Position numbers and translations under genes: made by a program. 64,000 bases of DNA. Origin: Suillus spraguei (Eukaryota > Basidiomycota > Agaricomycetes > Boletales > Suillaceae). The stretch spans positions 1 to 64,000 of the forward strand of contig JABCPU010000337.1 of assembly GCA_016800925.1 (NCBI GenBank), read 5' to 3'. Of this stretch, positions 1 to 32,193 are shown piece by piece. Under the pieces are notes generated by a model that saw only the letters and a program-made list of their open reading frames with translations, made no database searches and was not told the origin of the DNA. How positions within the stretch are numbered: position 1 is the first letter of the stretch; the number at the start of each line of letters is the position of its first letter.

Positions 1-3000
1 TTGATCAATCGCGACGTGTGCCATCTCACATTTCAACACAGGTATTGCATCCCGATGGACGAAGCAAGCAGATCTTTCACCGCAGGCGAATTCAAATTTT
101 TCTCCCAGTGTGACACAGGAAGCAGTAAGCGACTATAGTTGATGTTCAACTGATGCGCAAACTCACAATCGTCAGTCCCTGTGATAGTATTATTTACCAA
201 GTTCGATGCCTTCTACGACGTCGCCTACGGAGAGCTAAAATCAAAGGGAAAATCAATAAAAGACGCTCGAGCACTGGCCCCGACACACGCCGAGAAGTCA
301 TTTGCTAATGGGCCGCAATTGGAGTTTCTCAAGGGTGTTCGGTGGCCTCCAAAATGCCATGTATGCCTTCCCAGTAAGCTAAATGATAGTCAAATTGCGA
401 TGGGTAATGACCATTGATCCATTAGACATGGACAAGGATGATGCAGATTGTGGACCACTCATCGAACGCACAGCTGGAACTCTGGATAGCGACGTGCTTC
501 AGCGATTATTCGTCTCAACGCAGCAGATCAACTTGGAGCTCTGCATGAAATATGCAGTTGAGTAGTAACTACCCATCGTCTCATTTACCTCGCCACAAGC
601 GTTGACGACTGATATCGTCTAGCATACTGCGTTACCTCTTGCAAACCAGCTGAGACAACTGAGAGATTGCATGAGCGTTGATAGCCAGATGCAGTATCTG
701 GTTTCCACATATTTCTGTAAGATTATCAGAAATTTGAAGGTCGTTCTCATTTATGTTTTGGGCGTTTACTTGCAGATGGTATGTTGATTAATCCCATGGA
801 GTTATGCTGATCCAAGTCCTTTGCCCACTCTTCGCAGGTGTGAGTGTGTCGATCCTCCTTCGAGCTCGAGCGATGCTGATCCAAGTCCTTGCCCACTCTT
901 CGCAGTATGTGAGTGTGTCGATCCTCCTTCGAGCTCGAGCGATGCTGATCCAAGTCCTTGCCACTCTTCGCAGGATGTGAGTGTGTCGATCCTCCTTCGA
1001 GCTCGAGCGATGCTGATCCAAGTCCTTGCCCACTCTTCGCAGGATGTGAGTGTGTCGATCCTCCTTCGAGCTCGAGCGATGCTGATCCAAGTCCTTGCCC
1101 ACTCTTCGCAGGCTGTGAGTGTGTCGATCCTCCTTCGAGCTCGAGCGATGCTGATCCAAGTCCTTGCCCACTCTTCGCAGGCTGTGAGTGTGTCGATCCT
1201 CCTTCGAGCTCGAGCGATGCTGATCCAAGTCCTTGCCCACTCTTCGCAGACTGTGAGTGTGTCGATCCTCCTTCGAGCTCGAGCGATGCTGATCCAAGTC
1301 CTTGCCCACTCTTCGCAGACTGTGAGTGTGTCGATCCTCCTTCGAGCTCGAGCGATGCTGATCCAAGTCCTTGCCCACTCTTCGCAGACTGTGAGTGTGT
1401 CGATCCTCCTTCGAGCTCGAGCGATGTTGATCCAAGTCCTTGCCCACTCTTCGCAGCTGTGAGTGTGTCGATCCTCCTTCGAGCTCGAGCGATGCTGATC
1501 CAAGTCCTTGCCCACTCTTCGCAGGTGTGAGTGTGTCGATCCTCCTTCGAGCTCGAGCGATGCTGATCCAAGTCCTTGCCCACTCTTCGCAGGCTGTGAG
1601 TGTGTCGATCCTCCTTCGAGCTCGAGCGATGCTGATCCAAGTCCTTGCCCACTCTTTCGCAGGCTGTGAGTGTGTCGATCCTCCTTCGAGCTCGAGCGAT
1701 GCTGATCCAAGTCCTTGCCCACTCTTCGCAGGCTGTGAGTGTGTCAATCCTCCTTGGAGCTCGAGCCGTTCTCAATCAAGCCATCTCCCGTTTGTTGATA
1801 GGATGTGAGTGAGCCCATCATTTATTAAGTGTAAGAATTTCTGACTCAAGCAATCGACGATCTCTCGGCAGGAGTCAGTACATTGATCTTCTACCGACCT
1901 TGAGCCACTCACAGAACAAATCATTGATCTCTTGACAGCTTGTGAGTGTGATCATTTTCTGCCGACTTCCTATCTTCCTCATTGATGTGCTCCCTGATCT
2001 ATTGTCAGGGTGTGAGTGTATTGATTCTCCGTCGCCCTGACGCTATGGTCTATACTGACCGAAAACATTGCTGCTTCGTTAACAGCTTGTGAGTTGGTCC
2101 ATCCAGTATTGAACTCGAATCATACTGACTGACGCGTTGCCCATCCATTGACAGAGTGTAAGCACAATGATCCGCAGTCGAATTGGAGTATCACTGGACC
2201 AATGACATTGCCGATTCCCATTGACAGCACGTGAGTAGTGTTCATCTACGGTTGAGCTCAAGTGTCGCTGATCGATTGACAGGTGGTGAGTCTCTTCACA
2301 CCAATCGAGCGTCAGCCTTGCTCACCAATCCCAATCCCATGGCTCATCTACTCACAGCATGTTAGTGTGCTGATCTTCTGTTGAGTTTGAGTTTTGCTTA
2401 CTACTGAAATCGCACGTCCCTCAACAGTGTGTGAGTTTTTTTATCTTAGAGTCTTGCTTGCAAACGATATCGCTGATCCATCAATAGGAGGTTGGTTTCT
2501 TTATCCTCCTTTGACTTTGGGCCCATGCTGAATGAAGATGCTACACATTGGCAGAAAGTGAGTGTATCGATCCTCAGCAGAGTGGACGAATTTTCAATTT
2601 CCATCATTGTTTGACCAGATTTCTCGGGAACAGTGCGCAGACATGCAGTCTAGGTTACTCTCTGTGGTGTGTCTAATTAGTCACAAATTGTACACATTTC
2701 TCATGTTGCGAATGTGCCAGGTCTCTGGCTCAACACCCTCGGAGACCGATGTTCAACTCATTTCTGGTGAATTTCGAGGCTACGTTGCGACGAACCTGCT
2801 TATTATCGATCATTTAGCCGCTGCCATTATCTTTGAACACTCTTTCTACATTTCGACAAGCGACGCTATCTTCCGGACAGCCAGAAGTCTGTTCCTTCTT
2901 TTAATGTCGCTCTCGAGCGGTACATTGCGTCTCCGCATGCCGCTGCTGTGAGGGAAGCTGTGAGGTTGCCGTCCACACATGCCAAGGAAACTCGTTTACT

Positions 3001-3223
3001 TGGAAAGCCAAACTACTATTTGGACGCTTCCATAAGAAGGAAAACAATCTGTTCGTGACTCTCAAGACGAGTTGGCCAGCAGAATCGTTGAAATCATTCT
3101 AGAGCATCGCCTGTGTATGTTTAGCTGTTATGTCCTGGCAGTAATCCCGCTGATCTGCTTGTCTTCAGCAAGACCTTAACGTCGGGCGATGCGACTGATG
3201 TTCCGGTTCGGAGTGGAGCTTAG
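1..3223 (+). CDS. G-domain (P-loop GTPase) protein, 5'-partial, interrupted by a tandem intron array
   Basis: This is the 3' part of a basidiomycete G-domain protein; the Walker A half lies before the window. Exons 42-124, 176-373 and 426 to about 556-565 read in frame across GT-AG introns. They give YCIPMDEASRSFTAGE, a G4-type TKFD, a HVCLPNMD segment and LFVSTQQINLELCMKYA. An open stretch at 623-778 may be a further exon. The gene then enters the intron array (776-2618). After it the C-terminal helical region of the same family resumes: AAIIFEHSFYIS (about 2818-2854), FNVALERYIAS, DELASRIVEIILEHRL (ending at 3112), an intron 3113-3168, and a last exon ending at TAG 3221-3223. The EHSFY and FNVALERY parts are in different frames without an obvious intron, so there may be a small frameshift. 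Family assignment is from recalled conserved motifs. Exon boundaries between 556 and 2818 are uncertain. Confidence 0.72.
838..1801 (+). repeat. 69-bp minisatellite, 14 copies, each unit an intron-like module
   Basis: Near-identical 69 bp units begin about every 68-70 bp (donor GTGAGT at 840, 909, 977, 1046, 1115, 1184 and so on to 1735). Each runs from GTGAGTGTGTCGATCC, through a GCTGATCC branch-point-like motif, to a pyrimidine-rich end TTCGCAG. Two or three bases (TAT, GAT, GCT, ACT, CT, GT) separate one TTCGCAG from the next GTGAGT. The unit is therefore a complete 66 nt intron plus one codon. The last copy (1735-1801) is already diverged. The unit contains the palindrome GAGCTC. Open frames on both strands across the array are by-products of the repeat. 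Confidence 0.97.
1802..2618 (+). other. Diverged continuation of the tandem intron array, with single-codon spacers
   Basis: Intron-like units continue but their bodies no longer align well. The signals persist: introns at about 1805-1871, 1874-1938, 1942-2008, 2012-2085, 2089-2154, 2158-2227, 2231-2282, 2286-2357, 2361-2427, 2431-2487, 2491-2554, and one starting at 2558 that probably ends near 2618. Donors are GTGAGT, GTAAGC, GTTAGT, GTCAGT or GTTGGT. Acceptors are CAG or TAG. Most units contain CTGAC, CTGAT, CTGAA or CTCAC near the 3' end. The spacers are GAT, GA, CTT, GGT, CTT, AGT, CAC, GTG, CAT, TGT, GAG and AAA. None of the 3-nt spacers is a stop codon. Splicing itself is inferred. Confidence 0.8.
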
Positions 3224-23800: not shown

Positions 23801-26114
23801 GCACTCCCATTTACGCCTGCCAAGTCTCCGCTATCGAGAAAGTTTTCTACACGATTTCCAAGTATTCTTCGTGTGGCATCTGGACGTGATATGAACTGGC
23901 CGGCTGTTGAGACCGTGCTCAGTGGGCACACTTCCTCAGTTAACTCGGTGTCGTTCTCGCCGGATGGCACTCGCATCGTCACTGGTTCTTCTGATAAGAC
24001 TGTTCGGCTGTGGAACGCAGCGACAGGGGAGCCATTCGGGGAGCCCTTGCGGGGGCACACAGATGAAGTTAACTCAGTCTCATTCTCACCGGACGGTGCC
24101 CGCATCGTCACTGGTTCAATGGATAGGACTGTTCGGCAGTGGAATGCAGCGACAGGGGAGCCATTCGGGGAGCCCTTGCGGGGGCACACTGATTCAGTTT
24201 TCTCGGTCTCGTTCTCACCGGACGGTGTCCGCATCGTCACTGGTTCAAGGGATAAGACTGTTCGGCTGTGGAATGCAGCGACAGGGGAGCCAGTCGGTCA
24301 GCCCTTGTGGGGGCATACTGAGCCAGTTAAGTCGGTTTCGTTCTCACCGGATGGCGCTCGTATCACCAGTGGTTCTCCGGATGAGACTATTCGGCTGTGG
24401 AATGCAGCGACAGGGGAGCCAGTCGGGGAGCCCTTGCGGGGGCACACTTCTTCAGTTTCCTCGGTCTCGTTCTCACCAGACGGCACTCGCATCGTCAGTG
24501 GTTCTGCGGATGGGACTGTTCGATCGTGGAACGCAGCGATAGAGAAGCCAGTCGATGAGCCCTTGTGTGGGCAAGCTCTTCCAGTTACCTCAGTCTCATT
24601 CTCGCCAGACGGCACTCGCATCGTCACTGGTTTTTCGGATGGCACTGTTCAGCTGTGGAACGCAGCGACGAGGGAGCTAGTCGGTGCGCCCTTGCGGGGG
24701 CACACTCAGTTAGTTACATCGGTCTCATTCTCACCGGACGGCACTCGCATCGCCACTAGTTCGGAGGATAAGACTGTTCGGCTGTGGAATGCAGCGATGA
24801 GGGAGCCAGTCGGTCAGTCCTTGTGGGGGCATTCTGAGCCAGTTATGTCGGTCTCGTTCTCACCGGATGGCGCTCGTATTGCCACTGGTTCTTCAGATGA
24901 GACTGTTCGGCTGTGGAATGCAGCGACAGGGGAGCCAGTCGGTGAGCCCTTGCGGGGGCACACTGCTCCAGTTTCCTCGGTCTCGTTCTCGCCAGACGGC
25001 ACTCGCATCGTCAGTGGTTCTACGGATGGGACTGTTCAATTGTGGAATGCAGTGACAGAGGAGCCAGTCAATGAGCCCTTGTGGGGGCACGCTCATTCAG
25101 TTACCTCGGTCTCGTTCTCGCCAGACGGCACTCGCATTGTCACTGGTTTTTTGGATGGCACTGTTCGGCTGTGGAACGCAGCGACGAGGGAGCCAGTCGG
25201 GGAGCCCTTGCGGGGGCACACTGATTCAGTTGACTCGGTCTCGTTCTCGCCGGACGGCGCTCGCATCGTCAGTGGTTCGGAGGATCACACTGTCCGGCTG
25301 TGGAATGCAGCGACGGGCGAGCCAGTTGGTGAGCCCTTGTGGGGGCATACCAATTCAGTTGAGTCGGTCTCGTTCTCGCCGGACGGCGCTCGCATCGTCA
25401 GTGGTTCTTGGGATCAGACTGTTCGGCTGTGGAATGCAGCGACAGGGGAGCCAGTCAGTGAGCCCTTGCGGGGCCACACTAACGCAGTTGTGTCGGTCTC
25501 GTTCTCGCCAGATGGCACTCGCATTGTCACTGGTTCTTTGGATAAGACTGTTCGGCTATGGGATGCAGCAACAGGCGAGCCGGTCGGTGAGCCCTTGCAG
25601 GGCCACACTGCATGGGTTAGCTCGGTCTCGTTCTCGCCGGACGGCACTCGCATAGTCAGTGGTTCATATGATAGCACTGTTCGGCTGTGGAATTGTGAAC
25701 CTCGTGCGATGGAGACCACCACTACTATGCCATTGAACACTTGCAATAATCACCTTATTCGCTTCTCACCCCACTCCGTCCATGCGCTACGCAACATTTC
25801 TGAGTTGATGGATGGTGTATCCCATGACTACCACAGTACGACCCTCTTTTTCCTGGATAGTGACAGTGGATGGGTGATAGGACCCAAACATCGGCTGTTA
25901 TTCTGGGTACCACCCGCTTCTCGACACCTATTGTATAGCCCTGCAACTGCATTAGTAATACCCAGCGGAGGCCCTGAACTTGATTTGAGCCGCATGGCAC
26001 ATGGAGAACGCTGGCAACAGTGTCGAAAGCGGTGAGTTGTCAAAGCCCTTCCTGTTCCTCGCACCTACTAAAATCATCACCTGCAGTCCTTGGCACTGGA
26101 TGATCCTACTGTAG
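20841..26114 (+). CDS. NACHT-WD40 NLR-like STAND receptor (about 1594 aa)
   Basis: Ten exons join in frame: 20841-20921, 20984-21046, 21104-21184, 21242-21463, 21515-21565, 21620-21815, 21874-22008, 22059-23641, 23687-26031 and 26087-26114. The N-terminal helical region (HPYAKMALGVLSRAAK, then REcahFI-type helices) matches the effector-side domain of mushroom NWD proteins. The NACHT domain follows: Walker A GPAGKGKS at about residue 330, Walker B IVIVIDALDE at about 430, and TSRP sensor. WD40 repeats span residues about 884-1485: 14 units of exactly 43 aa (129 bp), a number that fits two seven-blade propellers. A conserved roughly 110-residue C-terminal block follows (FSPHxVHALRN, DSGWVIGPKHRLLFWVPP). 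Such proteins act as intracellular nonself receptors, with repeats under concerted, diversifying evolution. The ligand is unknown. Confidence 0.93.
23924..25729 (+). repeat. 14 tandem WD40 repeats, 129 bp each
   Basis: Units start every 129 bp from 23924 to 25601, each [31 protein letters not shown]. Variation is concentrated in a few positions per unit (the two residues after GHT, the residue before D, and the one after D). Units 3-6 (24182-24697) and 7-10 (24698-25213) are matching blocks, so there is a 516 bp higher-order duplication. Confidence 0.97.
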
Positions 26115-31865: not shown

Positions 31866-31950
31866 AGTAGGTTTGTACCGTGTCATCTTGCAACTGTTCA
31901 TTTAGAAATATGAGTGGTACTTTCTCGAGAAAATCTCAAGCATGATTGCT

Positions 31951-32179
31951 ACAGGTTTGCGCAAATTTCCCTCGTTGGGTACTAAAGAAGATGAAGAGCT
32001 TCTAATTGACGACCATAAATACTACAGGTTTGCGCAAATTTCCCTCGTTGGGTACTAAAGAAGAGGAAGAGCTTCTAATTGATGACCATAAATACTACAG
32101 GTTTGCGCAAATTTCCCTCGTTGGGTACTAAAGAAGAGGAAGAGCTTCTAATTGACAATCCTAAATGCTACAGGTTTGC
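31951..32179. repeat. 73-bp tandem repeat, three copies plus start of a fourth
   Basis: Units begin ACAGGTTTGCGC at 31951, 32024, 32097 and 32170, spaced exactly 73 bp with few mismatches. It fills the 3' space between the two convergent Harbinger genes. Confidence 0.95.
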
Positions 32180-32193
32180 GCCATATATACTTG

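Follow-up and report, generated by a model that had tools for sequence, protein, structure and literature searches.

Tandem arrays of near-identical introns separated by single codons in a GTPase family of Suillus spraguei: putative one-codon microexons and a hypervariable protein tract

The window analyzed here, a stretch of 64,000 nucleotides, is the start of contig C522 in the genome (86.2 Mb, 1256 contigs) of Suillus spraguei, an ectomycorrhizal relative of the boletes. The contig start truncates a gene on the forward strand whose conventional exons code for a portion of a P-loop GTPase; the paralogues start like MDPSEIRKKIDRFRVLVIGRANAGKTT, and GRANAGKTT (the P loop, GxxxxGKT) is present in paralogues and relatives. 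Based on sequence and on a homologous stretch at other loci, the first exon that we could place in the G domain lies at 42..124 (YCIPMDEA...), and it is followed by exons at 176..373 (PVIVLFTKFDA..., the G4 region), at 426..564 (MDKDDADCGPLIERTAGTL...), and at 623..716 (ending ...WFPHIS), the last one upstream of an unusual array. Beyond the array lie the exon SRLLSV (2649..2666), in a frame matching ...MQSRLFSV of the relative's protein P0002, an exon at 2721..2766 (VSGS...VQLIS) placed by sequence and by-eye comparison, and one or more exons for C-terminal helices at 2818..3112, the end being approximate. The array therefore falls after the G domain and before the C-terminal helices. When the homologous locus L015 was spliced by hand, the conventional part of the protein came to about 466 residues with the G domain first, and the sole match in a Pfam scan was MMR_HSR1, a family of TRAFAC/EngB-like GTPases, at 21.5 bits, just under the cut-off of 21.9. 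Two other tandem repeats were noted in the window: one of 129 bp at 23924-25693 (about 13.7 copies, 82% match), with a unit that is WD40-like by eye and may belong to a further repeat gene of NWD type evolving in concert, and one of 73 bp at 31949-32181 (3.2 copies, 95% match).

An initial annotation had described a tandem array of units, each an intron plus one codon, inside this GTPase gene, and that description was borne out by the sequence itself, by Tandem Repeats Finder (TRF; period 69, 14 copies, 97% match, 804-1766), and by the chain of splice sites. Following splice sites from the exon that ends at 716, we find 27 predicted microexons from 776 to 2557, separated by introns of about 66 nt (range, 52 to 74 nt). 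They are ATG (776..778), GT (838..839), TAT (906..908), GAT (974..976 and 1043..1045), GCT (1112..1114 and 1181..1183), ACT (1250..1252, 1319..1321, and 1388..1390), CT (1457..1458), GT (1525..1526), GCT (1593..1595, 1663..1665, and 1732..1734), GAT (1802..1804), GA (1872..1873, donor GTCAGT; a full codon for E in L009, L012 to L015, and L017), CTT (1939..1941), GGT (2009..2011), CTT (2086..2088), AGT (2155..2157, donor GTAAGC), CAC (2228..2230), GTG (2283..2285), CAT (2358..2360, donor GTTAGT), TGT (2428..2430), GAG (2488..2490, donor GTTGGT), and AAA (2555..2557), all on the forward strand, with 91 nt between the last microexon and the exon at 2649. The earlier count of about 26 units at 776..2618 thus becomes the ATG plus 26 more exons, with the array ending near 2640, and the spacers are single codons in 23 cases and 2 nt long in the other four (838, 1457, 1525, and 1872). 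The array has two parts. About the first 14 units are near identical, and the stretch at 804..1766 is homogenized, with near-identical 66-nt introns around differing codons; from 1767 to 2648 the intron interiors have diverged strongly, and these units still keep an AG acceptor, a spacer of 3 nt (once 2 nt), and a GT donor. The conventional exons of this copy, those at 623..716 and 2818..3112 among them, carry about five single-base indels that recur in comparison with at least four of five paralogues, and the window copy may be broken or poorly polished. Given its 2-nt exons and frameshifting indels, the argument that follows rests on the family and not on this copy.

How widespread are such arrays? 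A 321-base array query gave 217 matches in the genome, on at least 32 contigs among the matches listed. Across 20 fetched loci and the window (L025 yielding no chain and L024 a spurious one only), chains of at least five junctions contained 501 acceptor-to-donor gaps, and although gaps of 0 to 9 nt were allowed, 479 of the 501 were exactly 3 nt. The longest array found is that of L011 on C392, where four chains list 84 junctions in all. We also searched the genome for two successive junctions with the pattern GTGAGTN{45,75}CAG(NNN)GTGAGTN{45,75}CAG(NNN)GTGAGT, counting places that overlap along arrays. The 3-nt spacer was found at 251 places (90 + 161), a 4-nt spacer (NNNN) at none, and a 2-nt spacer (NN) at four, two of them within these arrays; the reversed pattern, as a control, was found nowhere in the genome. 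Chance or a simple satellite is ruled out by this specificity, at 251 : 0 : 4 for 3-, 4-, and 2-nt spacers.

At the GTPase loci the array occupies one common position. In the stretches fetched from distant GTPase paralogues on C360, C814, and C622, where the frames look degraded, no junction chain was found. The other copies, at the loci examined, adjoin a transposase-like frame or sit in dispersed repeats, and none lies inside another gene. At L023 (2601-3600, reverse orientation), a short array with TCT codons lies directly beside a frame that by eye is transposase-like, of Tc1/mariner type; the arrays at L024, L026, L034, and L035 are related to it, the copies being about 94 to 95% alike over 850 to 900 bases among the matches listed, and it seems that a mobile element captured the array in L023 and its relatives. 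A diverged array recurs in similar dispersed copies (L028 to L031 and L036) on C435, C339, C599, and C326, with similar matches on C136, C936, C630, C515, and C567; among 15 matches on these nine contigs, best candidates only, the GTPase exon was absent.

Within an array the introns are alike and the codons are not. In 11 of 13 arrays the core introns are 0 to 7% different from one another, and in L019 and L021, with five units apiece, the difference is 13%; these figures cover only 3-nt exons with modal-length introns within eight differences of the consensus, and codon positions 1 and 2 differ in about 25 to 80% of unit pairs. Even where two units have identical introns, their codons differ in 75 to 86% of pairs, in the ten arrays with at least six such pairs. 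L018, for example, has 24 identical introns out of 29 and uses four codons, AGA (10), GAC (8), TTT (7), and GAA (4). The array is a trait of the GTPase family at many loci, and its variable part is the codons rather than the introns. When codons were followed across 11 loci, 321 of 332 exons had 3 nt, a figure biased by a scoring that favors 3-nt exons, so that the 3-nt claim rests on the chain counts and the genome-wide pattern counts. The third base was T in 241 of the 321 followed codons, and none of the 53 that end in A or G was a stop. This procedure lost the ATG and/or GAG exon at some loci, ended prematurely in L010, L011, and L014, lacked an anchor in L016, L019, L021, and L033, and gave no path in L022.

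In L011, which codon a unit carries depends on how the preceding intron ends. All 13 CGT codons are preceded by a 74/75-nt intron carrying a small duplication, versus 2 of 61 other codons, and wherever CTT comes after a 66-nt intron (six of six cases), position 62 is a T. Five other variable intron sites in L011 showed no linkage to the following codon, except position 12, weakly (p = 0.04). Judging by this linkage, the units act like cassettes, with recombination taking place inside the intron.

The initial annotation offered an alternative, a single large intron that starts at 779, runs to about 2648, and contains the array as a minisatellite whose inner splice sites are ignored. Minisatellites within introns are common, skipping every array codon would not itself shift the frame, and the deposited S. 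spraguei model P0006, which like P0088 and P0095 is 257 to 260 amino acids long, ends before the array. Set against this are the exact 3-nt spacing, the intron length of 52 to 74 nt in the window, and the way in which the diverged units have changed. Over ten of these units (1935-2560), the window and L015 differ at 2 of 97 splice-site columns, 116 of 483 interior columns, and 14 of 30 codon columns (Fisher's test, 2e-8 for splice sites versus interiors and 0.009 for codons versus interiors). The corresponding figures are 3/97, 118/481, and 15/30 against L014 and 1/97, 19/497, and 7/30 against L027, where the codon excess over interiors has p = 0.0003 and the splice-site deficit is without significance (0.22). 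Overall, the inner splice sites are 8 to 12 times less diverged than the interiors against L014, L015, and L017 and 2 to 3 times less against L016 and L022. An excess of codon over intron change was not significant in four of the eight tested comparisons (L017, 0.06; L022, 0.6; L012, 0.7; L014/L015, 0.56). Twelve comparisons were computed, and the eight that were tested mostly share the window sequence and hence are not independent; window/L011, L015/L017, L014/L022, and L011/L015 stood outside the significance tests, and L033 was dropped from the tail alignment. One cell entered the tests as 58 in place of 59, with negligible effect. As far as sequence goes, the diverged units show the mark of spliceosomal introns, a conserved GT..AG around a drifting interior, and constraint on some 20 inner splice sites is not what one large intron would predict. 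We consider that explanation very improbable.

A further point against a single large intron comes from the proteins of relatives, which have a tract at this site. Protein searches returned proteins from jgi and lgn contigs of 1.0 to 2.6 kb, on which the frames run uninterrupted for as many as 543 codons. Such frames would be improbable for a genomic copy with many introns, and we have therefore taken these short contigs to be apparent transcripts. P0002 (543 amino acids, from an 1848-bp contig) carries the tract WFPHIWARYYYDDVRDLDVLDLLRDLDVLLLLKREKLDRSDCEKMQSRLF, within the longer stretch WFPHIWARYYYDDVRDLDVLDLLRDLDVLLLLKREKLDRSDCEKMQSRLFSV; the first 26 residues that follow WFPHIW consist exclusively of A, R, Y, D, V, and L, the predicted residues, since all six belong to the S. 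spraguei codon set and most are among its commonest. P0121 is similar to P0002 on either side (64/79 and 91/100 identical), but its tract is another one. The pair P0061 and P0131, identical at 99 of 100 positions upstream, likewise differs in the tract; they look like paralogues, as their C-terminal flanks differ too (72/100 identical). The tracts of P0138 and P0148 are YHLEYHHREEEEYHHHHHYLEYEEYL and NRNWLNDWRDDTDNNWTWWRNWGDRND, and because P0138 has its closest named relative in Gymnopus, the one-codon arrangement may extend beyond Suillus.

We examined 22 of the 23 listed jgi/lgn proteins (P0054 was left out), of which three were without the motif and three ended too soon. Among the 16 that reach at least 20 residues past the motif, 14 have a low-complexity 20-residue stretch with an entropy below that of at least 99.6% of N-terminal windows, in a test that sets a minimum over windows against single windows. 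P0074 and P0221, the other two, show no unusual tract, and the low-complexity stretches of P0139 and P0217 are not array-like by eye. Taken together, these proteins support the view that the array codons are used in frame; that each tract codon has an exon of its own is a prediction. The reading of the initial annotation, with a GTPase context, units of an intron plus one codon, and a gain of one residue per unit, is supported; the inner splice sites are constrained, and the relatives have in-frame tracts. As for the deposited annotations, other Suillus models (P0036, P0049, and perhaps P0128) seem by eye to have intron repeats translated, and the array region is probably misannotated widely in public gene models, which seem either to stop before the array, as P0006 does, or to translate its introns.

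Could a single gene yield many different tracts, any donor joining any later acceptor in frame? The near-identical donors and acceptors would permit this, and 3-nt units make each skip frame-neutral. Partly spliced forms also seem to occur. In P0130 the P0030 tract is extended by 17 residues that start with Ala-Ser and end with Gln (A-S ... Y-Q), which could be a retained 51-nt intron with a GCAAGT start and a CAG end, and P0035 and P0012 end in VSFF and VSFLILL, as expected of read-through into GTGAGT introns; such forms also speak for splicing of the array and against a single large intron. However, among the proteins read there was no isoform pair differing by skipped codons, and P0061 and P0131 are paralogue-like in their C-terminal flanks. 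Such an isoform library strikes us as unlikely.

Near-identical tandem units are difficult to assemble, and the question arises whether the arrays are an assembly artefact. Contigs C432 and C888 each carry two neighboring array genes about 10 kb apart and look like two haplotypes. Between them, L019 and L021 are 99.4% identical and share all 39 listed codons. L018 and L020 have flanks that are 96% (upstream) and 98% (downstream) identical and contain 30 versus 14 units in different order, with a TTG codon found in only one of the two; a comparison of array length, which had been suggested at the outset, thus shows that apparent alleles differ. L012 and L013 are 98.7% identical and agree at 30 of 35 core codons. 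Their internal indels fall on exons in five of nine events by reading of the alignment (a script mask flagged two), a higher proportion than the exons' share of the length. This points to errors in the consensus or to genuine frameshifts; where repeats are nearly the same and only their codons differ, the consensus may have been affected. The exon-centered indels and the 2-nt exons thus hint at consensus errors, but the agreement between apparent haplotype contigs and the derivation of the relatives' proteins from other assemblies make it scarcely credible that the arrays as such are artefactual.

In total, we regard it as highly probable, on sequence grounds, that these are real one-codon spliceosomal microexons encoding a hypervariable tract in a Suillus GTPase family, shaped by unit exchange and by selection on the codons. 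In this model, the pre-mRNA would contain up to dozens of introns of fungal size, each definable alone; removal of the introns of about 66 nt would join the single codons without loss of frame, giving a flexible tract that follows the G domain and precedes the C-terminal helices. The machinery at a donor and that at the acceptor just 3 nt before it would not be expected to fit side by side, and we thus posit that splicing probably proceeds by intron definition, with the introns removed sequentially. The same argument has been made for the 1-nt exon of APC11 (PMC4674806). At the level of DNA, the 69-bp unit would serve as a cassette, with unequal exchange homogenizing the introns and altering the number and order of units, and selection would maintain codon diversity, such that the tract becomes hypervariable among paralogues and alleles.

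The selective part of this model deserves separate scrutiny. It is conceivable that the codons are spliced in and their variety is unselected, arising by local mutation or under relaxed constraint in a tract that is a tolerated spacer. In keeping with this, part of the tract is modeled with some of the lowest confidence in the structure, the exon-over-intron excess is significant in only four of eight comparisons, and the L012/L013 indels also cluster at exons by reading of the alignment. Yet exchange should homogenize the codons too, and they are near saturation beside identical introns; no stops occur among the followed codons; and the splice sites and the 3-nt length are still constrained. 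On balance, we think unselected variety improbable and favor a tract whose codons are under diversifying selection. What would such a tract be for? A role in recognizing non-self or a binding partner is plausible, although we would put it at somewhat under an even chance. More speculatively, and with little expectation that it is right, one could imagine a generator with two levels, unit exchange among alleles and paralogues in DNA and unit skipping without loss of frame in RNA, in which the introns are the scaffold and the codons the payload, serving self/non-self recognition in the mycelium.

If the one-codon exons are real, the spliceosome handles up to about 84 consecutive exons of one codon, far below the size presumed to be definable, and an intron can serve as the repeat unit for diversifying a protein. 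This would apparently be a new route to a hypervariable protein region, by homogenized introns with varied single codons. It may also explain why many of the listed Suillus "GTP-binding protein" models have just 257 to 260 residues, as well as those that translate intron-like repeats. The array makes the use and the order of splice sites 3 nt apart testable.

Among known systems, several resemble these arrays in part. The exons of micro-exon genes (MEGs) and bicycle genes are larger and each different, and their introns are unrelated; in MEGs, by definition, the product is secreted and microexons account for the bulk of its coding sequence. At the sequence level, the Suillus genes have many internal exons of a few nucleotides in multiples of three, as MEGs do, whereas their tract is at most about 84 codons beside some 466 conventional residues. 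What the MEGs of schistosomes and the bicycle genes of aphids share with them is many small exons and rapidly evolving proteins (PMC9168663); here, by contrast, each exon is one codon and the introns are near-identical tandem copies. Splicing of tiny exons has precedents in the single-nucleotide exon of Arabidopsis APC11 (PMC4674806) and a microexon of the 1- to 3-nt class in Drosophila homothorax (PMC7392893), but those are isolated and conserved, with neither hypervariability nor arrays. Introners and stwintrons are likewise spliceosomal introns of which a genome has many near-identical copies. Those copies have moved to different sites or lie nested, unlike the Suillus introns, which lie head to tail at one position in one gene family, and a word look-up in the introner paper PMC9860276 gave neither "tandem" nor "arrays". 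A 2024 article states that functional microexons were undescribed in filamentous fungi and that fungal experiments on them had been done only in fission yeast (PMC11121469), and our searches of open-licence PMC papers showed no report of one-codon exon arrays. The alignment rows for Irga6/Irgb10 and septin/EngB G domains, which bundle G domains, showed 10% and 16% identity. We know of no such arrays in IRG or septin/EngB GTPases.

The closest working analogue is the HNWD family (het-d/het-e/het-r) of Podospora, whose genes act in allorecognition. In HNWD genes the repeats undergo concerted evolution, four codons per repeat are under diversifying selection, and repeat number is polymorphic (PMC1805685). 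The Suillus arrays would work alike, with homogenized repeats, few diversified codons, and variable repeat number, without being members: a Pfam scan of the hand-spliced L015 protein gave no match to a NACHT or WD domain. The difference lies in what is repeated. In HNWD genes it is a coding WD40 unit, whereas in Suillus it is an intron that is homogenized and a single codon that varies.
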